A stretch of 64,000 bases of DNA from an uncultured Sphingomonadales bacterium (lineage in GTDB: Bacteria; Pseudomonadota; Alphaproteobacteria; Sphingomonadales; Rhodothalassiaceae): positions 496,001 to 560,000 of the forward strand of contig CANMND010000002.1 of the NCBI GenBank assembly GCA_947499155.1. The letters run 5' to 3'. Positions 38,709-61,093 of the stretch are shown here, piece by piece. Under the pieces are notes generated by a model. It saw nothing but the letters and a program-made list of their open reading frames with translations. It was not told the origin of the DNA and ran no database searches. The number at the start of each line of letters is the position of its first letter. Position 1 is the first letter of the stretch. The position numbers and the translations under genes were made by a program.

Positions 38709-39482
38709 ATGAACTTTTTTGCGATTATCGGGCGATTCACGCTCAACGCATTGGCAGCGCTTGGGCGATTGACATTGTTTGCAGGGCAGGCGCTCGGACA
38801 TCTGGCTCGCCCGCCATTCTTCATCCGGAATATAAGCCAGCAGATTCTGACCATCGGTTATTTCTCGCTTCCGGTTGTGGGTCTCACAGCGCTGTTTACA
38901 GGAGCCGCTCTCGCCCAACAGATCTATGTGGGGTCGGCGCGTTTCAATGCGGAAAGTACCATGGCCGCAGTTGTGGTGATTGCCATTGTCCGCGAGCTTG
39001 GACCTGTTCTGGGCGGATTGATGGTGGCAGGCCGCGTTTCATCGGCCATGGCCGCTGAAATCGGCACCATGCGGGTGACAGAACAGATCGATGCGCTGGT
39101 GACGCTTTCCACCGACCCCTATAAATATCTGGTGGTCCCGCGTCTGATCGCCGGGGTGATTACCCTGCCCTTTCTTGTTGCCGTCGCCAACATCATTGGT
39201 GTTTTCGGTGGATTCCTTGTGGCCACCCAACGTCTTGGCTTTAATGCTGGCAATTATTTGAGCGTCACCATGAATTTTCTGGAGGCGACAGATATTGTCT
39301 CGTCCCTGGTAAAAGCTGCTGTTTTTGGCTTTATCATCGCCCTTATGGGCAGCTATCACGGCTATCATTCATCAGGTGGCGCACAAGGCGTCGGCCGTGC
39401 AACCACTGATGCGGTTGTCTCCGCCTTCATACTGATATTGCTGGCCAATCTGATCATAACCATCATGGTGTTCGGCTCATGA
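38709..39482 (+). CDS. mlaE: MlaE-family ABC transporter permease
   Basis: Inner-membrane permease (257 aa) of an MCE-type lipid transporter that keeps phospholipid asymmetry of the outer membrane. It shows the MlaE fold, with helices and the conserved GLTALFTGAALAQQIYVG and the central VRELGPVLGGLMVAGRVSSAMAAE, the EQIDAL coupling region and the C-terminal VGRATTDAVV. The length is usual (about 258). It overlaps mlaF by four bases (ATGA). No MCE protein (MlaD), MlaC or MlaB gene is adjacent, so the partners must be elsewhere. The ribosome-binding site is weak. Confidence 0.94.
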   Translation: MNFFAIIGRFTLNALAALGRLTLFAGQALGHLARPPFFIRNISQQILTIGYFSLPVVGLTALFTGAALAQQIYVGSARFNAESTMAAVVVIAIVRELGPVLGGLMVAGRVSSAMAAEIGTMRVTEQIDALVTLSTDPYKYLVVPRLIAGVITLPFLVAVANIIGVFGGFLVATQRLGFNAGNYLSVTMNFLEATDIVSSLVKAAVFGFIIALMGSYHGYHSSGGAQGVGRATTDAVVSAFILILLANLIITIMVFGS

Positions 39483-40255
39483 AGGACACACCAAAAATTG
39501 CCCTCGATGGCGTCAAAAAACGCTTTGGCTCCAAGGTTGTGCTTGATGGCGTCACGCTCAACATTGCCAAGGGCGAAAGCCTTGTAGTGATTGGCGGTTC
39601 CGGTACCGGAAAGTCGGTCCTGCTGAAATGTATTCTGGGTCTGCTCAAGCCCGAAGAAGGCAGCATTCACATTGATGGCGAAAATACTCTGACCAGGTCC
39701 GGGAAATCCCGCCGCGAGCAGATGGCACGATTTGGAATGCTGTTCCAGGGTGCAGCCCTGTTTGATTCATTGCCGGTCTGGGAAAATGTCGCCTTTGGTC
39801 TGATGAAAGCCCATGGCGTCAAACGTAAAGATGCCCGTGATATCGCTCTTGAGAAACTAGGCCGCGTAGGCCTTTCCGAGGATGTAGGGGCACTTTTCCC
39901 TGATGAACTGTCTGGCGGCATGAAAAAACGTGTGGGCCTTGCCCGCGCTATCGCTGCCGATCCTGACATCATTTTCTTTGACGAACCGACAACTGGGCTG
40001 GACCCAATTATGTCCGACATCATTAACGACCTGATTGTTGAAAGTGTACGAGACCTTGGCGCCACCACCATCACAATCACCCATGACATGGCCAGCGCCC
40101 GCAAGATCGCGCATTCCATTGCCATGCTCCATAAGGGTCAAATCATCTGGCAAGGCTCACAAGATGATGTGGACAATAGTGGCAACGCCTATGTCGAACA
40201 GTTCATCCATGGTCGCGCAGAAGGGCCCATCAAGATGGCCGTACGGAAAGGCTGA
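39479..40255 (+). CDS. mlaF: MlaF-family ABC transporter ATP-binding protein
   Basis: Cytoplasmic ATPase (258 aa) that powers the MlaE permease. Walker A is VIGGSGTGKSVLLKCILG, the signature is DELSGGMKKRVGLARAIA and Walker B is IIFFDEPTTGLDP; the H-loop is TITHDMASARKIA. The FQGAALFDSLPVWENVAF Q-loop segment is typical of MlaF. It is translationally coupled to mlaE and lies 62 bases before radA. Confidence 0.94.
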   Translation: MKDTPKIALDGVKKRFGSKVVLDGVTLNIAKGESLVVIGGSGTGKSVLLKCILGLLKPEEGSIHIDGENTLTRSGKSRREQMARFGMLFQGAALFDSLPVWENVAFGLMKAHGVKRKDARDIALEKLGRVGLSEDVGALFPDELSGGMKKRVGLARAIAADPDIIFFDEPTTGLDPIMSDIINDLIVESVRDLGATTITITHDMASARKIAHSIAMLHKGQIIWQGSQDDVDNSGNAYVEQFIHGRAEGPIKMAVRKG

Positions 40256-42253: not shown

Positions 42254-44329
42254 CTATTTCATGCCCGATTGTGGCCAAGTGTTACTGTCTTCCCTGCCAG
42301 CCCTAACCTGATCCAATGGACGCACAGGATATGACAGAAGAAGCGTTTTTTCTCTTGAGGTCAGACTGCTTGCACCTAACCGTTCGAGCTTTTCATAAAT
42401 AAGGGATACTTCAGTTACGAGACGGGGATCCGGCGCCGATTCAGGCAAGAGGGCCGCATGAAGGGCGCTGGCAAAAGGGTCTTCGATCAAGCGATGCAGG
42501 CCTTCATCTGGATCAAAGTCTTTTGTCTGATCCAGTTCTTCTTGCAGGTATAAAAGCTCGCCTGAAGCAGCCACTTCTTCCGGCGTTACGAATAACCCCC
42601 TGCACCGCGCACCGACGCCCCATGAAACCTTGCTGGTCACATGCGTCAGAAACGGTGACAACACAAGGCCTAGCAAAACTGGCAACATCCACCAGAAAAA
42701 GGATGCTGTCGCGTAAAGTGCCAATGCTCCCCAGCCAAGACCAATCAGAATATGGACTTTATGAACAGCAAATGCCGATGAAAGAGGCACCACCTTGTCG
42801 CCACGCACTTGCGCTTCCCAACCAACTGCTCTCCCCATAAGGATGGAAACGACAAATTGGGTATGCAAAAGCATCATCTGGGGAGCCAGCAGCGCTGAAA
42901 ACACAAGTTCCCCAACCAACGCCCCCAAAAGCCCAGGAAGACCACCGTAGATTTTCGCACGCCGGAACATGACAACCATAAGCGAGAATATCTTTGGTAC
43001 AGCAAGCATTCCAAGAGTAACGGCGAGCAAAGTCAAAAGCTCAGCTTGCCTGTCAACCGGCCAGGTCGGGAACAAGGCTGCTCCTTCAGAAAAGAACGAC
43101 GTACCCGCCCTGGTCGTTTCTATGGCCGTTGCAGTTGATGCCAATAAAAGTAACAGCCAGAATGGCGAGGATAAAAAGCTCATGACACCCATAAACAAGT
43201 GAAGGCGACTCAAGGGCTTTAGCCCGCGGGCAAACAGGATGCGCGCATGTTGCAGATTACCCTGACACCAGCGGCGGTCACGGATTGCATAATCAATCAC
43301 ATTGGGCGGCAGCTCTTCCCAGCTTCCCTCAATGTCGGGTGCCATCCATACAGTCCAGCCACCCCGACGCATCAGGGCCGCCTCGACAAAGTCATGGCTG
43401 AGAATGGGTCCACCCAGTGGCGGTTTGCCCGACAGGACCGGAAGCCCGCAGCATTCCAGAAACGCTTTAGTACGGATAATCGCGTTGTGCCCCCAGTAAT
43501 TACCGCTTCCCAACTGCCAGAAGGCCAGTCCTCTGGCCATCGCCGGCCCATGAACCCGCGATATAAACTGCAGGATACGGGCAAAAAGTGTCTCACGTCC
43601 AAAAGGTGACGGCGGGCTTTGAATGATGCCAGCGTCTGGTGTCATTTCCATATGTTTGGCAAGACGCACAATAGCCTCACCGGCCATCACACTGTCTGCA
43701 TCAAACACCAGCATAAAGTCATAAGCCCCGCCCCACTTCTCGCAGAAATCCTTGAGGTTTCCCGACTTTCTTTCAACATTATTCTCACGGCGTCGATAGA
43801 AAATGCGTCCTACTGCATCCAGGTCTTCACAGGTTTCGGCCCATAACAGCTCTTCTGCAATCCAGATGTCGGGATCGCGCGTATCCGACAAGACAAAAAA
43901 GTCAAAATATTCAAGTTTTCCTGTCTCTGAGAGAGAACGCCATGTTGCCTTCAAACCGGCAAAGACCCTGGAAGGATCTTCATTATAAACCGGAATAACG
44001 ATAACCGTCCGACTGGAGAGGGTAATATCGCGTGCTTTTGGCCAGTGTGGAAAAGGCCGGAGTTTAACGGGATCGAGCCGCAAAAGGCGTAGGACCACAC
44101 CCACAAGGCCGGTCATGAAGGACAAAGTTATCCAACTGAAATTAATCCCGAAAATCGCCAGAAGAATGATCTCAAGAGTCGTCAGTCCATCGCCGGAAAG
44201 AGCATAAGACAATGCCCAGACGCCAAGGGCGGACACAATGACGACCGATGCAAAAAACAGACTGCGCCTGATGATTGCGGACTTGTTGTTAAACCGAAAG
44301 TCCTCGTCATGTATCTTTCTCAATACCAT
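42254..44329 (-). CDS. opgH: glucans biosynthesis glucosyltransferase OpgH
   Basis: Inner-membrane GT2 glucosyltransferase (691 aa) that builds and exports the beta-1,2-linked backbone of osmoregulated periplasmic glucans from UDP-glucose. Two N-terminal helices are followed by the catalytic domain: VIVIPVYNEDPSRVFAGLKA, the DxD in FMLVFDADSVMAGEA, and the acceptor/QxxRW-type segment RDRRWCQGNLQHARIL. Then come about five helices (LFMGVMSFLSSPFWLLLLLA onward). It is shorter than E. coli OpgH (847 aa) mainly at the N-terminus. It lies two bases after opgG, clearly co-translated. Confidence 0.95.
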   Translation of the reverse strand: MVLRKIHDEDFRFNNKSAIIRRSLFFASVVIVSALGVWALSYALSGDGLTTLEIILLAIFGINFSWITLSFMTGLVGVVLRLLRLDPVKLRPFPHWPKARDITLSSRTVIVIPVYNEDPSRVFAGLKATWRSLSETGKLEYFDFFVLSDTRDPDIWIAEELLWAETCEDLDAVGRIFYRRRENNVERKSGNLKDFCEKWGGAYDFMLVFDADSVMAGEAIVRLAKHMEMTPDAGIIQSPPSPFGRETLFARILQFISRVHGPAMARGLAFWQLGSGNYWGHNAIIRTKAFLECCGLPVLSGKPPLGGPILSHDFVEAALMRRGGWTVWMAPDIEGSWEELPPNVIDYAIRDRRWCQGNLQHARILFARGLKPLSRLHLFMGVMSFLSSPFWLLLLLASTATAIETTRAGTSFFSEGAALFPTWPVDRQAELLTLLAVTLGMLAVPKIFSLMVVMFRRAKIYGGLPGLLGALVGELVFSALLAPQMMLLHTQFVVSILMGRAVGWEAQVRGDKVVPLSSAFAVHKVHILIGLGWGALALYATASFFWWMLPVLLGLVLSPFLTHVTSKVSWGVGARCRGLFVTPEEVAASGELLYLQEELDQTKDFDPDEGLHRLIEDPFASALHAALLPESAPDPRLVTEVSLIYEKLERLGASSLTSREKTLLLSYPVRPLDQVRAGREDSNTWPQSGMK

Positions 44330-44331
44330 GG

Positions 44332-45981
44332 TCAGGACGTTCCACTTTGCGTAAATGTCCAGACTTCTGAGACGGGCTTGCCTTCCAATCTCAAAAACAG
44401 CCTGATATCCATCGGATTTACTCCCGATGGCATGGCATCAAATATGACCCGAACGGCTTTGGTTTCTGGATTATTCTGAAGCGCCACCAATGTGACACTG
44501 CCGTTATCAGCGCTCAGCTCCGCCTTGATATTATTTATGAACTGCGAAGCATATTCTATTGTTTCACCAGTAAATTCCACGATATGCCGCCGCATTCCAG
44601 ATGGTGCGTTGTCTTTGGTCCCCGGCACATGGGCCCTGGTATTGAGACTGAGACTTGCCCTACCCAGGCGGTGAGGAGAAATGCCGGGATCAAGTGCTGA
44701 CAAGCGATAGGAAAAATCCCGTCTTTCGCCAACTTCCATGGCTTTTTCCGACACCCAGAAAGCGACGATATTGTCGTTGGTCTCATCGGGACTTGGTATT
44801 TCCACCAGTTCCACATGTCCCTTGCCCCAGTTACCCTTGGGTTCTACCCAGTAGCTTGGACGACGGTCATAATGGGCTTCCAAATCGCGATAATGATTAA
44901 AGTCCGCGTCACGCTGAAACAGGCCAAAGCCCCGCGGGTTTTCATCTCCATAGGCATTGATACCCAGCCTGCGCGGGTTAGTCAGCGGACGCCACAACCA
45001 TTCACCAGCACCATTGTTAATTAAAAGGCCATCGCTATCATGAACCTCGGGCCGGTAGTCGTCAAAACGGTTGCCACGATTTTCTCCATACAAAAACATG
45101 CTGGTCAAAGGCGCAATGCCGGTCTTTTTGGCAGCACTTCGCGCAAACAGGCGTACTTCCACATCGATATAACTTGCGTCTCCAGGATTAAGGTCAAAGC
45201 GATAAGCCCCTGTCACACTAGGGCTTTCAAGAAGTGCATAGATCCGGATGGGATTGTTTTCCGACTGCCCTTCCTCAATCCAAAAAGCTGAAAAGCGAGG
45301 AAACTCCTCACCCTTAGTGCTGGCTGTATCAAGTGCCAGGCCACGCGCGGACAGGCCATATTGCTGTCCACTGCCAAGAAAGCGGAAATAACTGGCACCC
45401 TGAAAGGCCAAAACCTCGTCAAATATCCCTGCCTTATTGAGCGGATAATGAAGTCGAAAACCGGAAAACGCTGAAAAAATCCCCGCGTCTGCTTTTGCAG
45501 GCGTGCGATCTATAAGATCACCATATTCAAACAGGTCCGGATCAAAGGCGACATCCTTGACAAGCCCATTGATTAAAAGCGCGACCCTGACTGGTTCCTT
45601 AAACAGAAAACCGGGATGGAAAAGCTGAAGTCGGACTTTTTCAGACAAATGGATTGCCTTGTCAGCCTTAAAACGGATCCGTCGGTAAGCGTCATAATCC
45701 AGATCTGCCATCCATTGCGGCAAAGAATTCGCCTTGCTTTGAAATGGCTTTAATGCAAGTTCGGCTGCATGACTGGTAAGGCTGTCAAAGCTGAAAACTT
45801 TGCCATTGGCCACACCTTCCTCAACTGCCGGCTCAAGGACAGGATCCGGCCCGGCTGGCTGTTCAGCCGCTGGTGTCTGTTGCGCGTTGGCATATGCCGA
45901 ATGAGTTGTCATGAGGCAGGCCACGGAAAAAAACGCCGCGATTTTTAGCCACTGCCATCTGTTCCTATTTATTCTGACCAT
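44332..45981 (-). CDS. opgG: glucan biosynthesis protein OpgG
   Basis: Periplasmic protein (549 aa) needed for osmoregulated periplasmic glucan formation. It has a signal peptide (core LKIAAFFSVACLMTTHSAYA), the N-terminal beta-sandwich catalytic-like domain with ASYFRFLGSGQQYGLSARGLA and FPRFSAFWIEEG, the YGENRGNRFDDYRPEVHDSDG segment conserved in OpgG/OpgD, and a C-terminal Ig-like domain. OpgG and OpgD belong to a family in which beta-1,2-glucanase activity has been shown for OpgD. Start choice: the ATG at 45981 gives a standard signal peptide; 46023 is also open. Confidence 0.94.
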   Translation of the reverse strand: MVRINRNRWQWLKIAAFFSVACLMTTHSAYANAQQTPAAEQPAGPDPVLEPAVEEGVANGKVFSFDSLTSHAAELALKPFQSKANSLPQWMADLDYDAYRRIRFKADKAIHLSEKVRLQLFHPGFLFKEPVRVALLINGLVKDVAFDPDLFEYGDLIDRTPAKADAGIFSAFSGFRLHYPLNKAGIFDEVLAFQGASYFRFLGSGQQYGLSARGLALDTASTKGEEFPRFSAFWIEEGQSENNPIRIYALLESPSVTGAYRFDLNPGDASYIDVEVRLFARSAAKKTGIAPLTSMFLYGENRGNRFDDYRPEVHDSDGLLINNGAGEWLWRPLTNPRRLGINAYGDENPRGFGLFQRDADFNHYRDLEAHYDRRPSYWVEPKGNWGKGHVELVEIPSPDETNDNIVAFWVSEKAMEVGERRDFSYRLSALDPGISPHRLGRASLSLNTRAHVPGTKDNAPSGMRRHIVEFTGETIEYASQFINNIKAELSADNGSVTLVALQNNPETKAVRVIFDAMPSGVNPMDIRLFLRLEGKPVSEVWTFTQSGTS

Positions 45982-46159
45982 AAACTTGTGTCTGCTCCTG
46001 GCCTCGCCATATATCAAACCCATAACCAGTCTCTTCGCCTATAGAAGTGTTACGGCATTTTTACGGCGACGCGGTTTGTGCGCCATTGAGCAGACACTTG
46101 ATGGAAGACAGTATTTCAGGGCACACTCTGCGAAATTCCTCCAGTCTGACAGAGGCACC

Positions 46160-54071: not shown

Positions 54072-55100
54072 ATGGACAAGGTACGCTCAAAGGCTCCATT
54101 ACGTCTGGGATTGGCTGGCGGCGGTAGTGACGTTTCACCTTATTGTGATCTCTATGGCGGTGCAGTTTTAAACGCCACCATTGATCTGAGTGCCTATTGC
54201 ACGATCGAACCATCACCGGACGGTATGGTGCGCTTTCGGGCAACAGACCGTGATGAAGTCTTCACAGACGAGCCTCGTTCTTCCTATGGCTATGATGGGC
54301 TGCTGGACCTCCACAAAGGCGTCTACAACCGGGTTGTTCGTGATTACAATAATGGTGAGCCACTAAAGATTCATGTCACCACCTTTTCCGATGCACCAGC
54401 AGGATCGGGGCTAGGGTCCTCTTCCACCATGGTGGTTGCTATCCTCAGCGCCTATACAGAATTGCTGCACCTTCCTCTGGGTGAATTTGATATTGCCCGC
54501 ATCGCGTTTGAAATCGAACGCCGCGACATTGGCCTTCGAGGCGGCGGACAAGATCAATATGCTGCAACCTTTGGCGGCGTGAATTTTCTGGAATTTTATG
54601 AAAGTGACCGCGTAGTGGTGAACCCCTTGCGGGTCAAAAACTGGATTTTAAATGAGCTTCAAGCATCACTAGTCCTGTTTTTTTCCGGAGTATCACGGGA
54701 ATCAGACAAGATTATCGCTGAGCAGGTCAAAAACTTCCAAAACAAGTCCGGCAAAAGTATCGAGGCCGTTCATTCGCTGAAAAAAGACGCTTATTACATG
54801 AAGGATGCCCTTTTGAAGGGTGATATCCCGGAATTTGGAGCCATTCTGGGTCGCTCCTGGGAAGCCAAAAGGCAAGTTGCCGCCAACATCTCCAACACCT
54901 TGATGGAAGATGTTCTCGACCGCGCCAGAAAAGCCGGAGCCTGGTCGGGCAAGGTCTCAGGTGCAGGCGGTGGCGGCTTTATGATGCTGATGGTGGACCC
55001 GGTCGACCGCATGCAGCTCATATCCGCCCTCAATACGCTCGACGGGCGCGTTGTCCATTTTAATTTCGTCAAACAGGGAACACAGGCATGGCGAATATAA
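54072..55100 (+). CDS. hddA: GHMP kinase, D-glycero-D-manno-heptose 7-phosphate kinase-like
   Basis: Sugar kinase (342 aa) of the GHMP superfamily. It opens with [20 protein letters not shown], which is characteristic of heptose-7-phosphate kinases, and has the ATP loop [17 protein letters not shown] near residue 112 and the C-terminal [14 protein letters not shown]. HddA phosphorylates at the anomeric position in the GDP-D-glycero-alpha-D-manno-heptose pathway, which feeds S-layer or capsule glycans. It overlaps gmhA by 13 bases, the enzyme for the preceding step, which supports the call. hddC and gmhB do not follow. Confidence 0.88.
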
Positions 55101-55684
55101 GCATCGACTATGTGCGTCAGCAGGTAGAAGAATCCGCGGCCACAAAACAAGCACTTCTCGCCGATAACGCTCTATTGGATGAGATTTATACAGTCGGCAA
55201 AAAAATTATCGCCGCCTATAAAAAAGGCAACAAAACCCTGCTCGCCGGAAATGGTGGCAGTGCGGCGGACGCACAGCATATTGCAGCGGAATTTGTCAGC
55301 CGCTTTTATTTTGATCGTCCTGGATTACCATCCATTGCACTAACCACCGACACATCAATCCTGACGGCAATTGGCAATGACTATGGTTATGAAAAGCTGT
55401 TCCGCCGCCAGTTGGAAGCCAATGGCGTGCCGGGAGATATCTTTATCGGCATATCCACCAGTGGCAATTCACCGAATATCATCAAGGCACTGGAGATATG
55501 CAAAGAGCGAGATATCCTTGCCATAGGGCTTAGCGGCCAGTCAGGCGGCAAAATGGCGGACCTGTGCGACCACTGCCTCAAAATGCCATCCATGAGCACG
55601 CCACGCATACAGGAATGCCATATCCTTGTCGGTCATATCCTGTGCGCCATGGTAGAAGAAGAGCTCTTTGGTGAGGGGCGCTGA
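55088..55684 (+). CDS. gmhA: phosphoheptose isomerase
   Basis: SIS-domain isomerase (198 aa) that turns sedoheptulose 7-phosphate into D-glycero-D-manno-heptose 7-phosphate, the entry to heptose synthesis. Family motifs are [20 protein letters not shown] near residue 55, [19 protein letters not shown], and the second SIS motif [16 protein letters not shown], with [16 protein letters not shown] near the end. The length fits (about 195). The ATG at 55088 lies inside the end of the kinase gene, so the two are coupled. A short hairpin follows the stop. Confidence 0.95.
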
Positions 55685-55820: not shown

Positions 55821-56294
55821 ATGGAAACGCAAGACATAGGGCAGACAGCGCCTGGCGTAACTTCACCGCTTCATGGCTATGCCTTTGCATCATGGTCACG
55901 CTTGGCTGCAGCTATCATTGACGCAATAGTATTGATCATAATCAGCTTTTTGTTCAGCCTGCTGCTCGGTGCAGTTTTGAGAGTAGCTGACCAGCCTCTG
56001 GAAACGATCAAGCTTTCGAGTAACATTTTCAGTCTTGTCGTAGGTTGGCTTTATTATTCTATTCAGGAAAGCTCGGAAAAGCAGGCAACAGTCGGCAAAG
56101 CGGCATTGGGTCTTCGTGTGACCGATATAAATGGAGAAAGAATTTCCTTCTTGCGAGCGACAGGACGATATTTTGCCAAGGCTCTCAGCGCCATCATCCT
56201 TCTGATCGGCTATATCATGATCTTGTTCACCAGCAGGAAACAGGGACTTCATGACATCCTTGCAAGCACTCTGGTCTTGCGAAGGAAAAAGTAA
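55821..56294 (+). CDS. RDD family membrane protein
   Basis: Inner-membrane protein (157 aa) with three predicted helices. The N-terminal YAFASWSRLAAAIIDAIVLI holds the Arg and Asp that define the RDD family. Helix 2 precedes the TVGKAALGLRVTDINGERIS loop, and the C-terminal helix precedes RKQGLHDILASTLVL. The function of most RDD proteins is unknown; some have been linked to ion transport. It stands alone, with its own ribosome-binding site (GGGAGG), and shares a terminator with fabZ. Confidence 0.88.
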   Translation: METQDIGQTAPGVTSPLHGYAFASWSRLAAAIIDAIVLIIISFLFSLLLGAVLRVADQPLETIKLSSNIFSLVVGWLYYSIQESSEKQATVGKAALGLRVTDINGERISFLRATGRYFAKALSAIILLIGYIMILFTSRKQGLHDILASTLVLRRKK

Positions 56295-56319: not shown

Positions 56320-56352
56320 AAAGCCACCGGCATGGAACCGGTGGCTTTCTTT
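56320..56352. terminator. bidirectional terminator between RDD gene and fabZ
   Basis: An 11-base perfect stem (56320-56330 with 56338-56348) with a 7-base loop; T-rich sequence follows on the plus strand and A-rich sequence precedes it, so it serves both convergent genes. Confidence 0.85.
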
Positions 56353-56397: not shown

Positions 56398-56856
56398 TCA
56401 GTCCAGTTCCTTGTCCATCAGCATGGCAGTGATGGTGGCCTGGGCGACGACCGCGCCTTCTACCTTGGCCATGCACTCAAACCGCCAAACATTGCCCCGC
56501 GCCCGATTTTTCGCGACTTCCAAATGCAGGACGTCGCCCGGCACCACAGGTTTGCGAAAGCGGGCACTATCAATGCTCATGAAATAAACAAGACGCCCTT
56601 CCGCCTCTTCGCCCAAAGAATGGACAACAAGTATTCCGCATGTCTGAGCCATGGATTCGACAATAAGCACGCCCGGCATCACCGGCCTTTGCGGGAAATG
56701 CCCAGGGAAAAACGGCTCGTTGATCGTTACATTCTTGATCCCGGTCGCGCTCTCTCCCAACACGATATCACGAACACGGTCTACCAGCAGAAAAGGATAT
56801 CTATGCGGGATTTTGCGTACGATATCGCCGATTTCCAGTACATCCAGTGATGCCAT
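56398..56856 (-). CDS. fabZ: 3-hydroxyacyl-[acyl-carrier-protein] dehydratase FabZ
   Basis: Hot-dog-fold dehydratase (152 aa) of fatty acid synthesis. The catalytic residues are His53 in PFFPGHFPQRPVMPG and Glu67 in VLIVESMAQTCG. The opening IVRKIPHRYPFLLVDRV is the family start. I use the ATG at 56856; a GTG at 56865 is also open. In most alphaproteobacteria lpxD lies just upstream of fabZ and lpxA downstream. Here skp is directly upstream (110 bases) and a convergent RDD gene lies downstream. Confidence 0.96.
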   Translation of the reverse strand: MASLDVLEIGDIVRKIPHRYPFLLVDRVRDIVLGESATGIKNVTINEPFFPGHFPQRPVMPGVLIVESMAQTCGILVVHSLGEEAEGRLVYFMSIDSARFRKPVVPGDVLHLEVAKNRARGNVWRFECMAKVEGAVVAQATITAMLMDKELD

Positions 56857-56966
56857 TCCGTTCACTCTCTATAATGGATTATACAGATCACGCACGCTTG
56901 CCAAAACCAACAGGCGTGCGAATGCTTAATCAATAGTCAGCATGTGGCTGACGAGCGGTTAGCCGC

Positions 56967-57530
56967 CTAGTTTTGTGCAGCTACTTTCGTAGCATCGGGA
57001 AGTGACACATCAAAGCTTGGCATGACCTTGTCCAGTTTTTCGATGACCTCAGTGGTCACGTCAAGGCCCGACACATGATGAGACACAAGCGCCTTGTCGA
57101 TCACCATATTGGCGCCTTTTGTTTCCATCACTTCACGAACGATGGGGCGCAATGCACGCTGTACCTCAAGATTGGCCTGTTGCATGGCTTGGCCACTCTG
57201 GCGATCTATCTGCTGCAATTCGGCCTGACGGCGCTGAGCTTTTTGTTGAAAGGCACGCACACGCTCGTTGAAAGCTTCCTGACTGATGATGCTGCGCTGC
57301 TTTTTCAACTCTTCTTCTTCATCTGCCAGATTAGACTGGATGGACCGGGCGCTGTTTTCAAGATCGACCCGAAACGATTGCGTCTGGGCAGCAATATCTT
57401 TACCGACGAGCGATTCACGTGAGACTCTATCAAAATCAACAACAATGATTTTTGAATTCGGAACAGACTGGGCCTGAGCCACACCGGCTAAAAAGACCAA
57501 TCCGATAGTAATGAGAATGTTTCGAAGCAC
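56967..57530 (-). CDS. skp: OmpH/Skp family periplasmic chaperone
   Basis: Chaperone (187 aa) for outer-membrane proteins on their way to BamA. It has a signal peptide (MLRNILITIGLVFLAGVAQA, cleavage near QAQ), a short beta strand (KIIVVDFDRVSRESLVGKDI) and a long charged coiled coil at about residues 50-135 (EEELKKQRSIISQEAFNERV), which forms the jellyfish arms of the trimer. The C-terminal part closes the core (NMVIDKALV). It lies 21 bases after bamA. Confidence 0.94.
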   Translation of the reverse strand: MLRNILITIGLVFLAGVAQAQSVPNSKIIVVDFDRVSRESLVGKDIAAQTQSFRVDLENSARSIQSNLADEEEELKKQRSIISQEAFNERVRAFQQKAQRRQAELQQIDRQSGQAMQQANLEVQRALRPIVREVMETKGANMVIDKALVSHHVSGLDVTTEVIEKLDKVMPSFDVSLPDATKVAAQN

Positions 57531-57551: not shown

Positions 57552-59927
57552 TTAGAAGCTGGTGCCGACATTAAACTGGAACGACTTCGTGTCGTCGAAG
57601 GGCTGACTCTTCAGGATCTTGGAAAAGTCGATGCGAAACGGCCCAAAGGGCGACTCCCACGCAACACCAACACCCACAGAGATACGTGGTTCAGCCGTAT
57701 CACCAAACACGGCCTCACCTTCAAAATCCGTTCGCCCGCTCAGGCCAAACAGGGATGCTGCATCCACGTAAACACTGGCCTGCACACCCATTTCCCTCGC
57801 GGCCTCGCCCAGCGGAAGGAAGACCTCCGCTGTACCAAGATAAAAGACCTCACCGCCGATAAAGTCCGGTCTGAGGCCCACGATCGGCTCGCCCGTCTCA
57901 TCCAGCAAAACCGCAGCCGGCCCCAGACCCGCTGTATCAAATCCACGTACCCGCGGTCCACCCAGGAAAAAACGGTCATTAATGCGTATATCCTGTCCCA
58001 ACCCGCGCGTATAGCCTGCTTCTGCACCAAGCCGACCATAAAAGCCCCAGACAAGCGGGATAAATTTGTCATAGTCGAGACGGCTGCGCAAATAGAAGAT
58101 GTCCCCGCCAACACCCGCCAGGTCCTGACTGAAAACCGCACGCTGGCCGCGGGTCGGACGCAACGGATGGTTAAGGCTGTCATAAATCAGGCTGTAGCCA
58201 ACAAGCGATGTAATGTTGTCGCCAAGCTGGTCACGGATAAACCGCGATATCCGAGTGCTGTCGATATTGCCGATATCAACCAGGTCGCGGCGTATCGAAT
58301 AACGCAAGGCAAGCACTGACCGTTCCGCAATGGGAAGGCCAAGGCGCAAGGACATGCCAGTTGATGTCGTCTTGAAGCTGCTGAATCTACTTTGCTCAAG
58401 GCTGATTTGGAACAAATCCACACCGGCAGAGATATTGCGCCCCAAGAAATGAGGCTCGGTAAAGCCAACGTCAATTTGCTTGCGCAAGCTGGATAGGGAG
58501 AAATTAAGACGCAGTTCCTGTGCACGCCCCAGGAAATTCCGTTCACGAATGCTGAATTCAAAGATGAAGTTTTCAAGGCTTGAAAATGCAGCACCGAGTG
58601 ACAATTCACCAGTTGCATCTTCTTCAAGGCTTACATCCAGAACCAGCCTGTCTTCACGGCTACCAGGCAACTGTTCGATTTCAGACTCGCGGAAAAAACC
58701 CAATCTTTGAATTCTTTGGCGAGACCGCTCCATCTTTGAAAGGTTAAACGCGTCCCCTTCCACCAGGCGGAATTCACGGCGGATCACTTCATCCCTAGTT
58801 CGCACGTTACCATGAACCGCAATACGCTCCACATAAACACGTGGTGCATCCAGAACACGGAATGTAATATCCAGCGTGCGTGTCTCGCGGTTTTTGACTG
58901 GCAATGGACGAACCGTCACAAAAGCATAGCCCAAGATACCAGCGGCATTGGTCAGTCGCTCGACCGTGTCGGTAATTTTGTCAAGATTATAGGTCTGTCC
59001 CTCCCGCATACCGACAAAAGCCTTGAATAATTCAGGCTCGATATCACGGATTTCGCTTTCAACATCTACTTTGCCAAAGCGGTAAACCTCGCCTTCTTCC
59101 ACAACAAAGGTGACGATGAAGTCTTCACGATCAGGAGTTAGTTCAGCAACGGCAGATACAACGCGGAAGTCCGCATACCCATTGTTAAAGTAAAATCGCC
59201 GCAACTGCTCGCGGTCAAATGCCTGGCGATCTGGATCATAAGTATCGTTAGAGCCAAAAATCCGCCACCAACGGGCTTCAGTCGTTGCCAGTTCGCCACG
59301 CAGGTCACTATCTGAGAAGTTTTTATTCCCAAGGAAGTTAATTCGCCGAATCTTACTTTTGGGACCTTCGGAAATCTCGAATATGAGATCGACACGGTTT
59401 TGCGGGAGTTGAACCACTTTAGGCTCGATCACCGCAGCAAACCGACCTGAGCGGCGATACAGGTCAAGCATACGCTGAACATCAGCCTGGACCTTGGCGC
59501 GTGTAAAGACGATGCGAGGCCGCAATTGAACTTCAGCGCTCAGTTCATCATTCTTAAGGCGCTTATTCCCTTCAAACACAATACGGTTGATGATCGGATT
59601 TTCCGTAACATCAATAACAAGCGTATTGCCACGACGGTCAAAGGAGACGTCGGCAAACAATCCGGTCGCAAAAAGGCGCTTTAGACTGTCATCAAGCGAT
59701 GCGGGATCAAACTGGTCACCAACCCGAACAGACAAATAGGAAATGATTGTTGCGGATTCGATACGCTGGGTACCCGAAACAGCAATACCTTCAATCCTGC
59801 CGGCCTCAACCGCAGGAGACACAATGCCCTGCTGGGACAAGGCCGGTGGCGCGGAAAGTAGAATAATGCCGGAAAAAGCGACCAGAACCGCGCATAACCG
59901 GGGAAAAAGATTCGACCGCAATGTCAC
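57552..59927 (-). CDS. bamA: outer membrane protein assembly factor BamA
   Basis: Core of the BAM complex (791 aa), which inserts beta-barrel proteins into the outer membrane. It has a signal peptide (to about residue 31), five POTRA domains (about residues 42-440, beginning IEGIAVSGTQRIESATIISY) and a 16-strand barrel. The VRGF motif of loop 6 is in GGPRVRGFDTAGLGP, and the barrel ends in the C-terminal Phe of NVGTSF. The length is normal. It is followed upstream by rseP and downstream by skp. Confidence 0.98.
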   Translation of the reverse strand: MTLRSNLFPRLCAVLVAFSGIILLSAPPALSQQGIVSPAVEAGRIEGIAVSGTQRIESATIISYLSVRVGDQFDPASLDDSLKRLFATGLFADVSFDRRGNTLVIDVTENPIINRIVFEGNKRLKNDELSAEVQLRPRIVFTRAKVQADVQRMLDLYRRSGRFAAVIEPKVVQLPQNRVDLIFEISEGPKSKIRRINFLGNKNFSDSDLRGELATTEARWWRIFGSNDTYDPDRQAFDREQLRRFYFNNGYADFRVVSAVAELTPDREDFIVTFVVEEGEVYRFGKVDVESEIRDIEPELFKAFVGMREGQTYNLDKITDTVERLTNAAGILGYAFVTVRPLPVKNRETRTLDITFRVLDAPRVYVERIAVHGNVRTRDEVIRREFRLVEGDAFNLSKMERSRQRIQRLGFFRESEIEQLPGSREDRLVLDVSLEEDATGELSLGAAFSSLENFIFEFSIRERNFLGRAQELRLNFSLSSLRKQIDVGFTEPHFLGRNISAGVDLFQISLEQSRFSSFKTTSTGMSLRLGLPIAERSVLALRYSIRRDLVDIGNIDSTRISRFIRDQLGDNITSLVGYSLIYDSLNHPLRPTRGQRAVFSQDLAGVGGDIFYLRSRLDYDKFIPLVWGFYGRLGAEAGYTRGLGQDIRINDRFFLGGPRVRGFDTAGLGPAAVLLDETGEPIVGLRPDFIGGEVFYLGTAEVFLPLGEAAREMGVQASVYVDAASLFGLSGRTDFEGEAVFGDTAEPRISVGVGVAWESPFGPFRIDFSKILKSQPFDDTKSFQFNVGTSF

Positions 59928-59983: not shown

Positions 59984-61093
59984 TTACAAGGATTGCAAGT
60001 CGTTCACAGTCAAAAACACCATCAATGTTATAATCAGGGCAAATCCGACCATATAGCCCAACTCCTGAATACGCGCGCTGACAGGCGATCCCTTGACCGC
60101 TTCAAACGCATAAAACAATAGATGCCCGCCATCCAGAACAGGGATTGGAAAGAGGTTAATCAGGCCCAAATTAACGGAAATCAGGGCAACAAGCTGGATA
60201 AACGGAACGAATCCCAGGGATGCCTGTTCGCCGGTAACTTTGGCGATTTTGACCGGGCCTCCCAGATCATCGATGGATCGTACACCCATGATGACCTGTC
60301 CCGTGGCCGTCAGCATTAATCGCACCATGGTCACCGTTTCTGTCACCGCAGCTCCCAGTGATTCCACCGGTCCCAAAGATCTGATTTCTACGGGACGATC
60401 CAGCATCACACCCAGCATGCCGCGGGTGTATGTATTGCCAAACCTGTCTACCTGGCTGTCTTCTGCCAGAGTGACTGAACGGGTAATTCTGCGCCCGTCC
60501 CGCTCATAAACAAGCGCGACCGCCATTCCTGGATAAAGGGAGACTGTCCGCACCAGATCACCCGCACTGTCGACCGAATGTCCTGCAACTGAAATGATCC
60601 TGTCGCCAACCATCAAACCTGCTTCTTGTGCTGGCATGTTCTCAGAGACGCCGGCAACGACAGCTGGCTGCACCGGCTGCCCATATGTCCCAAAAAGTCC
60701 AGCATAAATCAGAATTGCGAAAAGGAAGTTGATCATGGGTCCGGCAGCAACAATAGCCGCACGCTGCGCCACTGGCTTATAGTGAAAGCAGACAGCCTGT
60801 TCTTCTTCAGTGAGGGTTGAAGTTATCTCTTTGGAGCCACGACTTGCGGCATCTGCATCGCCAAAAAAGCGAACATAACCTCCAAGGGGGAGCAGGCTGA
60901 TTTTCCAGCGCGTCCCTTTTTTGTCAGTCCAGCCGTATATTTCGCGGCCAAATCCAATGGAAAACACCTCCACACGCACGCCAAACATTCGCGCAACAAT
61001 GTAATGACCCCATTCATGCACGAAAACCAGAGCCGACAATGCCAGCAGAAATGTGAGAATTGTGAAGATCAGGCCAGGCGACGCAACATCCAT
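59984..61093 (-). CDS. rseP: RIP metalloprotease RseP
   Basis: Intramembrane site-2 protease (369 aa) that cleaves anti-sigma factors and leftover signal peptides. The zinc motif HEWGH is at residues 26-30 in the first helix, and the third ligand is in the LDG motif of FPIPVLDGGHLLFYAFE. One PDZ domain is clear in the middle (AQEAGLMVGDRIISVAGHSV); E. coli has two. The shorter length is normal for alphaproteobacteria. Confidence 0.96.
   Translation of the reverse strand: MDVASPGLIFTILTFLLALSALVFVHEWGHYIVARMFGVRVEVFSIGFGREIYGWTDKKGTRWKISLLPLGGYVRFFGDADAASRGSKEITSTLTEEEQAVCFHYKPVAQRAAIVAAGPMINFLFAILIYAGLFGTYGQPVQPAVVAGVSENMPAQEAGLMVGDRIISVAGHSVDSAGDLVRTVSLYPGMAVALVYERDGRRITRSVTLAEDSQVDRFGNTYTRGMLGVMLDRPVEIRSLGPVESLGAAVTETVTMVRLMLTATGQVIMGVRSIDDLGGPVKIAKVTGEQASLGFVPFIQLVALISVNLGLINLFPIPVLDGGHLLFYAFEAVKGSPVSARIQELGYMVGFALIITLMVFLTVNDLQSL

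Follow-up and report, generated by a model that had tools for sequence, protein, structure and literature searches.

Why some Gram-negative bacteria live without lipid A has been described as an unanswered question (PMC10964400), and the route by which bacterial sphingolipids reach the outer membrane was described in 2024 as not known (PMC11324152). Sphingomonas is free of lipopolysaccharide and has sphingolipids, and Caulobacter survives without lipid A given anionic sphingolipids (PMC10964400; PMC11324152). A sphingolipid Lpt2 system has been proposed in Caulobacter, where CC_1156 is the proposed LptF2 and its mutants show co-fitness with a sphingolipid gene (PMC11324152). CpgB, encoded in the Caulobacter sphingolipid region and possessing a DAG-kinase domain, is a ceramide kinase in vitro according to the available text of PMC10331486. 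At a greater distance, the spirochaete Borrelia burgdorferi also keeps an Lpt bridge without lipopolysaccharide, and a glycolipid cargo has been proposed from modelling; the abstract of that study mentions neither sphingolipid gene linkage nor paralogue replacement (PMC10353723).

Here we describe an alphaproteobacterial genome (2.81 Mb, 25 contigs, completeness rating 100%) by way of a 64,000-base window, by which we mean the whole stretch of DNA analysed, bases 496001-560000 of contig C2. The envelope that this genome encodes resembles that of Sphingomonas in its undetected lipid A pathway, its Sphingomonas-type serine palmitoyltransferase (Spt), perhaps the 2-OH fatty acids listed for its named relatives and, probably, its order; it differs in that Sphingomonas bears glycosphingolipids and none are reported for Iodidimonas, the genus of those relatives, in the available text of PMC10556733. 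Its ceramide genes and lptFG form one cluster, whereas they are scattered in S. wittichii and Z. mobilis (PMC11324152). The closest arrangement is the CC_1152-CC_1168 region of Caulobacter crescentus, which likewise unites ceramide genes, lptF, lptG, a flippase-like gene and a lipid kinase; Caulobacter, however, also makes lipopolysaccharide, and its LptC2, LptF2 and LptG2 are second versions, whereas the sphingolipid-linked LptFG is the sole pair here. Set against the LptB2FGC-LptA-LptDE bridge of E. coli, Klebsiella and Shigella, LptF, LptG and LptD all pass their Pfam cut-offs and LptG its NCBIfam cut-off as well, but LptF falls below the NCBIfam equivalog cut-off and there would be no lipid A to carry. 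The LptG found here also lacks the basic pair that lipopolysaccharide-type alphaproteobacterial LptG proteins have at the end of their first transmembrane helix (TM1).

A bamA-skp-fabZ junction without lpx genes

On the minus strand of the window, the gene order is dxr, rseP, bamA, skp and fabZ, after which come a hairpin and a convergent RDD gene. The bamA gene (57552-59927; Pfam POTRA and Omp85), which encodes the outer-membrane protein insertase, identifies Iodidimonas muriae (86%) and strain Q-1 (84%) as the nearest named relatives, the latter now named I. nitroreducens in the available text of PMC10556733. Upstream in the same conserved cluster, the site-2 protease gene rseP (59984-61093, minus strand; Pfam Peptidase_M50, 233.9 bits, with PDZ domains) has 76% identity to the I. 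muriae locus (L001) and 72% to the Q-1 locus (L002), and skp, an OmpH-like periplasmic chaperone gene (56967-57530, minus strand; Pfam OmpH, 63.6 bits), has 80-86% identity to the two. The 3-hydroxyacyl-ACP dehydratase gene fabZ follows at 56398-56865 on the minus strand (NCBIfam TIGR01750, 194.8 bits against a cut-off of 155.15; Pfam FabA-like, 124.8 bits).

The skp-fabZ junction (56866-56966) is the site that lpxD occupies in lipid-A-making relatives, and no coding remnant was found in it. An earlier note on this DNA, made from the sequence alone, placed fabZ 110 bases after skp, which is correct from the next ATG and becomes 101 bases from the GTG start. It also held that lpxD, lpxA and lpxB are missing from the cluster; this is borne out, and lpxI joins them, because tblastn with LpxD, LpxA, LpxI and LpxB gave no match at 1e-3 across the whole window. 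On the far side of fabZ, in the region that holds lpxA-lpxI-lpxB in relatives, lie a terminator-like hairpin with an 11-pair stem (56320-56348, plus strand) and a gene for an RDD-family membrane protein (55821-56294, plus strand; Pfam RDD, 89.4 bits). The convergent RDD gene is as that note described it, but the terminator it assigned to fabZ would depend on the near symmetry of the hairpin, judged by eye: the terminator scan, which returned four such sites in 800 bases against 0.8 expected in shuffles, lists the hairpin for the plus strand, that of the RDD gene, and not for the minus strand of fabZ.

We compared 12 of the 21 loci that matched BamA, two from Iodidimonas and ten of Rhizobiales type (typed by record title). 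I. muriae and Q-1 share the lpx-free bamA-skp-fabZ order; the RDD gene follows fabZ in I. muriae and was not found there in the Q-1 locus. All ten Rhizobiales-type loci have lpxD immediately after bamA, nine of them with the complete lpxD-fabZ-lpxA-lpxI-lpxB series and the tenth stopping at a contig edge; lpx identities were verified by NCBIfam in L003 and L004. In the window, fabZ stands alone after the loss of its lpx neighbours, and the junction is probably one place that this loss left behind.

Lipid A enzymes across the genome, family and order

None of LpxB, LpxC, LpxK, KdtA, LpxD and the LpxA C-terminal domain was detected anywhere in the 2.81 Mb genome. With six enzymes of the pathway undetected, and each of the searches positive in both E. 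coli and Caulobacter, which served as controls, the local absence of lpx genes is not a matter of chance. A genome-wide search was the test that the earlier note had named for deciding whether the lpx genes had moved or were gone, and finding none of the six enzymes favors loss over relocation.

The same absence extends to relatives. LpxC was found in none of the seven genomes of the family (five of them at least 90% complete), and neither LpxK nor KdtA was found in these seven, which are a subset of the 80 genomes drawn from the order; across all 80, LpxD and the LpxA C-terminal domain were each absent. LpxK matched in seven of the 80 at E<=0.001, with one above the curated cut-off and six below it. 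The match above the cut-off, in G314, is a piece close to the end of a contig that covers only positions 5-107 of 328; its assembly is 85% complete and has no LpxA or LpxD match, and we took it as foreign or a remnant. KdtA was found in four of the 80 genomes, none of them in the family. These KdtA/WaaA carriers, G300 (L149), G307 (L150), G302 (L151) and G311, are without LpxA, LpxD or LpxK matches, and their gene could be a remnant or could encode a Kdo transferase now acting on another lipid. LptD, by contrast with these absences, is present in 80 of 80.

The Spt of G016, from coded family f2 of the order, scores 717 bits against the same solved Spt group as the Spt of the window genome, a group that we take to be from Sphingomonas. 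Judged by that match, the order would very likely include the sphingomonads.

Published chemistry of the genus can be set beside these searches. 3-OH fatty acids are a marker of lipid A. Table 5 of PMC10556733, within the available text and restricted to acids of at least 1%, gives only 2-OH forms (C12:0, C14:0, C15:0 and C18:1) as the hydroxy fatty acids of three Iodidimonas species and includes no 3-OH acid, acids below 1% not being shown; this listing fits an envelope without lipid A. Thin-layer chromatography in the same available text gives PE, PG and DPG together with four unidentified aminolipids, neither a glycolipid nor a sphingolipid being named (PMC10556733), and a sugar head group on the Iodidimonas surface lipid is not supported.

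A ceramide gene cluster that holds the only LptFG pair

The ceramide synthesis set of aasR, cerR, acpR, spt and cerS appears to be complete in this genome, with cerS and cerR assigned by position and resemblance. Compared with solved Spt proteins, spt (G000:C1:60211-61431) reaches 597 bits for the best of them and 279 bits for the next group; among NCBIfam models it passes SerpalmtaseBetaP (609 bits, cut-off 500) and comes under SerpalmtaseAlphaP (649 bits, cut-off 670). It is accompanied by genes for an acyl-carrier protein, acpR (L049:1434-1694; Pfam PP-binding), an NAD-dependent reductase, probably cerR (L049:1814-2746), and a fatty acyl-AMP ligase, probably aasR (L049:2806-4671), these last two named by resemblance. 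The adjoining part of the cluster encodes an N-acyltransferase-like protein, probably cerS (L048:12223-13386; no Pfam or NCBIfam match), a flippase-like protein (L048:13457-15016; MatE 22.5 bits, below cut-off), LptG (L048:15013-16131; NCBIfam 250.9 bits, above the cut-off of 240), LptF (L048:16128-17333; NCBIfam 208.5 bits, below the cut-off of 230) and a DAGK-type lipid kinase (L048:18271-19266); LptF and LptG each pass the Pfam cut-off. Thus lptF and lptG are linked to spt and cerS in L048/L049. The names aasR, cerR and cerS are taken from the Caulobacter region that the cluster resembles (PMC11324152), with position as a further guide for cerS and cerR, for which there is no curated model. 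By eye, a row of three similar subtilisin-like proteases, all secreted, lies a few kilobases away from these genes (L049:15334-19579; one on the minus strand, two on the plus).

Exactly two proteins in the genome match PF03739 (LptF_LptG), and both lie within the ceramide cluster. The place where such a pair would be expected from the lipid-A makers that we opened, whose usual order is pepA-lptF-lptG-lptD-surA-pdxA-ksgA, is empty: the lptD domain match (C2:268270-269370, passing the Pfam cut-off) is preceded by pepA at a distance of 253 bases, with no gene between, and followed by surA, pdxA and ksgA. In all three lipid-A-less genomes opened at lptD (this one, G004 and G131), pepA adjoins lptD without an LptFG match. 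Because the lipid A pathway is undetected, the LptF, LptG and LptD encoded here are predicted to form a relative of the Lpt system that is not a lipopolysaccharide exporter. The envelope without lipopolysaccharide that the earlier note had offered as one outcome accordingly needs one amendment: it holds as regards lipopolysaccharide, but the ceramide cluster with its LptF and LptG makes the outer leaflet probably a sphingolipid one and not a bare one.

Spt, LpxC and LptFG across Alphaproteobacteria

We extended the comparison to a class sample of 289 alphaproteobacterial genomes that are at least 90% complete, of which 250 have LpxC and 39 do not (20 listed directly, 19 deduced by elimination from the listed matches). 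A strong Spt match, defined as at least 336 bits by a threshold chosen after the gap was seen, occurs in 43 of the 289, namely 26 of the 39 without LpxC versus 17 of the 250 with it (Fisher p 2e-16, kinship not removed). Eight of the 51 genomes with matches at E<=1e-60 were set aside, their best matches reaching 205-247 bits at 34-38% identity; we took these as other alpha-oxoamine synthases.

The 26 LpxC-less genomes with strong Spt span 12 coded families. Three families show both states, f24 (G029 versus G139), f66 (G249 versus G071 and G169) and f79 (G177 and G255 versus G084), and in each the LpxC-bearing member is without strong Spt and the LpxC-free member has it; lipid A was therefore probably lost more than once. 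The remaining 13 of the 39 LpxC-less genomes have no strong Spt match, which counts against a strict rule; LpxC states are also mixed in f73 (G078, 90% complete) and f88 (G093, 0.7 Mb), where LpxC is missing from an Spt-less member.

LptFG proteins were counted in 48 hand-picked genomes: 26 lipid-A-less, 12 of the 17 with both LpxC and Spt, and 10 of the 233 with LpxC and without Spt. Five of the 26 (G295 and G297-G300) lie outside the LpxC scans and were called lipid-A-less on LpxA, LpxD and LpxK. Genomes with both LpxC and Spt have four LptFG proteins in 11 of 12 cases and five, one a fragment, in the other, and those with LpxC and without Spt have two in nine of ten, the exception being G024 with four, two of them weak. 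The 26 lipid-A-less genomes have two in 21 cases, three in three, four in one and none in one.

The genome with none, G061, is lipid-A-less and has spt and cerS, yet no LptF or LptG match was found anywhere in it, so the link between Spt and LptFG is not absolute. By eye, G061:C1:1492001-1532000 (L141, L142) seems to contain a Cas9-like gene, repeats and transposase-like copies, on account of which a recent disruption of that locus is possible. The LpxC-bearing G024 has a very divergent LptFG-like pair (L132; G024:C2:499772-501927; 82 and 76 bits) close to a weak Spt-like gene; this pair may represent a third kind of Lpt pump.

Two families of LptFG

In a tree of 55 LptF and LptG pairs, 36 fall on a sphingolipid side and 19 on a lipopolysaccharide side, a split with 100/100 support that was recovered in all 200 bootstrap trees counted. 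The 36 comprise 24 lipid-A-less pairs and 12 sphingolipid- or kinase-linked pairs of genomes with both LpxC and Spt; the 19 comprise the 12 second pairs of those same genomes and seven pairs from genomes with LpxC and without Spt. All 24 lipid-A-less pairs, that of the window genome included, are on the sphingolipid side. From linkage we infer that the window genome's pair is of the Caulobacter LptF2G2 type, Caulobacter not being among the named rows of the tree.

Left out of the tree were the divergent G024 pair (L132), G061, which has no pair, G295, in which the pair is split between contigs, and the LptF and LptG proteins of G029, G047 and G077, which are unpaired. The unpaired proteins, the G295 pieces and the extra LptF-like copies carried by G006, G213 and G297 were scored with group hidden Markov models instead. 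The six unpaired proteins are lipopolysaccharide-type by these models, and for the extra copies of G006 and G297 and the G295 pieces the sphingolipid-side models give the higher scores, as they do, least clearly, for the extra copy of G213 (131.7 versus 69.4). The further LptF copy of G006 (L143; G006:C2:213001-231000) stands beside flippase-like, cerS-like and DUF502 genes, and the main lptFG of that genome is on C4.

Gene context provides evidence independent of the tree. In the windows fetched around each pair, pepA and/or lptD, surA, pdxA or ksgA stand beside 19 of 19 lipopolysaccharide-side pairs versus 0 of 36 on the sphingolipid side. Among the latter, cerS or spt is present for 23 of the 24 from lipid-A-less genomes and for 10 of the 12 others.

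The two families also differ in sequence. At the periplasmic end of TM1 in LptG (alignment columns 32-33), all 19 lipopolysaccharide-type proteins have at least one Arg or Lys, and 16 have two, whereas at least one Arg or Lys occurs in four of 36 sphingolipid-type proteins and at least one Asp or Glu in 25 of 36. The basic pair aligns with E. coli K40/K41 by eye only (V-D/E-x-L-K/R-K/R-A). In a published structure, K40 contacts the lipid A 4'-phosphate and K41 the inner core (available text of PMC6744409). Two things speak against giving this match much weight: MAFFT places the pair three columns off, for which reason alignment columns are given here in place of a residue identity, and in E. 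coli K40E/K41E leaves growth unaffected (available text of PMC5548808). LptF shows the opposite trend at one site, where sphingolipid-side proteins conserve an E-R pair: 34 of 36 have E, and 35 of 36 have R or K.

One sphingolipid-side pair, L118 (G111:C19), comes from an LpxC-bearing genome of another family and groups with G006 within the order of the window genome (100/99), a placement that suggests movement of the ceramide cluster by horizontal transfer.

Interpretation and alternatives

This interpretation builds on what can be read from the genomes, that is, six undetected lipid A enzymes, the ceramide genes present, and what LptFG is, where it lies and how it groups in the tree. We think it likely that this lineage has lost lipid A and has a ceramide-based outer leaflet that sphingolipid-type LptFG and the sole LptD supply, and that the lipopolysaccharide-type LptFG was lost together with lipid A. 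An ancestor of the lineage would have lost lipid A synthesis, with the skp-fabZ junction as a trace. A ceramide-based lipid made by AasR, AcpR, Spt, CerS and CerR probably fills the outer leaflet; the sphingolipid-type LptF and LptG of the cluster probably lift it from the inner membrane, and the single remaining LptD would deliver it. The lipopolysaccharide-type LptF and LptG beside lptD would have gone along with lipid A.

For the class as a whole, we favor, with somewhat less assurance, a reading in which two Lpt pumps with a common LptD exist in Alphaproteobacteria. The lipopolysaccharide pump would be encoded beside lptD and dropped when lipid A is lost, and the sphingolipid pump would be encoded beside spt and cerS; lipid A would have been lost repeatedly, mostly in the presence of the sphingolipid pump, which then became the sole exporter.

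A different division of labor, which we consider unlikely, would also begin with lipid A lost and sphingolipids made, but would assign the Lpt bridge a different amphiphilic cargo, whether a polysaccharide-lipid, an aminolipid or an envelope glycolipid, and send sphingolipids through Mla/MCE or some other route. It gains from the MlaE permease and ATPase kept in the window, from G061 with its Spt and no LptFG, and from the unidentified aminolipids, which are the only unnamed lipids reported for Iodidimonas in the available text of PMC10556733. The cargo of LptFG and LptD, like the surface-lipid chemistry and head group, is also something that we infer and not an experimental result. However, a bridge with such a cargo would leave the recurrent proximity of cerS or spt to lptFG to be accounted for, both in the lipid-A-less genomes (23 of 24) and in the LpxC- and Spt-bearing ones (10 of 12), as well as the way that four-copy and two-copy LptFG patterns track Spt and LpxC and the co-fitness of Caulobacter CC_1156 mutants with a sphingolipid gene (PMC11324152).

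Loss of lipid A with ceramide export by LptFG and LptD also fares far better than two readings in which nothing was lost. It is highly improbable that a missing contig or sequence divergence has produced false absences: the assembly is a draft in 25 contigs, but LpxD and LpxA are absent from 80 of 80 order genomes, and LpxK and KdtA above cut-off from 79 and 76, single-contig genomes included; LptD was found in all 80, and the bamA-skp-fabZ junction is unbroken in this genome, as it is in I. muriae and Q-1. That the lpx genes were relocated as a set and ordinary lipid A is made has only their local absence in its favor and is scarcely credible when six lipid A and Kdo enzymes are undetected in a genome rated 100% complete and the lptFG pair found beside lptD in lipid-A makers is gone too.

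Our search of the literature covered open-access sources, mostly by titles and abstract beginnings. Within it, we found no statement that lipid-A-less alphaproteobacteria keep only the sphingolipid-type LptFG, and none that Iodidimonadaceae belong to the lipid-A-less sphingolipid group; as far as we searched, both the gene pattern in Iodidimonadaceae and the apparent coupling of lipid A loss to loss of lipopolysaccharide-type LptFG seem to be new. Because lipid A loss goes hand in hand with loss of one LptFG family and retention of the other, the retained family is the foremost candidate for exporting sphingolipids, and the LptFG pattern offers a testable answer on both sphingolipid export and life without lipid A. 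If the two-pump reading is true, lipid-A-less genomes are natural knockouts that identify the missing sphingolipid transporter. The prediction is that a cultivable iodide-oxidising family, and probably its order too, is without endotoxin, which could bear on its response to polymyxins and LpxC inhibitors.

Other envelope genes in the window

Two heptose genes lie beyond the RDD gene. The hddA-like heptose 7-phosphate kinase gene (54072-55100, plus strand) matches Pfam GHMP kinase and scores 446.6 bits on NCBIfam NF049969, below the cut-off of 600; the gmhA-like sedoheptulose 7-phosphate isomerase gene (55088-55684, plus strand) matches Pfam SIS_2 and is below both NCBIfam cut-offs (PRK13936, 206.6 bits against 276; TIGR00441, 199.1 bits against 209.45). 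The gmhA-like gene is not evidence for lipopolysaccharide in this genome, and with the lipid A pathway undetected the product of the two genes (54072-55684) probably goes into another glycan.

The lipid-asymmetry transporter permease gene mlaE (38709-39482, plus strand; Pfam MlaE, 249.1 bits) is kept despite the loss of lipid A and adjoins an ABC ATPase gene (39479-40255, plus strand; Pfam ABC_tran, 112.8 bits) that is probably mlaF, a name given from position. Periplasmic glucan genes are present in this lipid-A-less cell as well: opgG (Pfam MdoG, 597.6 bits) and an opgH-like glycosyltransferase gene lie at 42254-46023 of the window.
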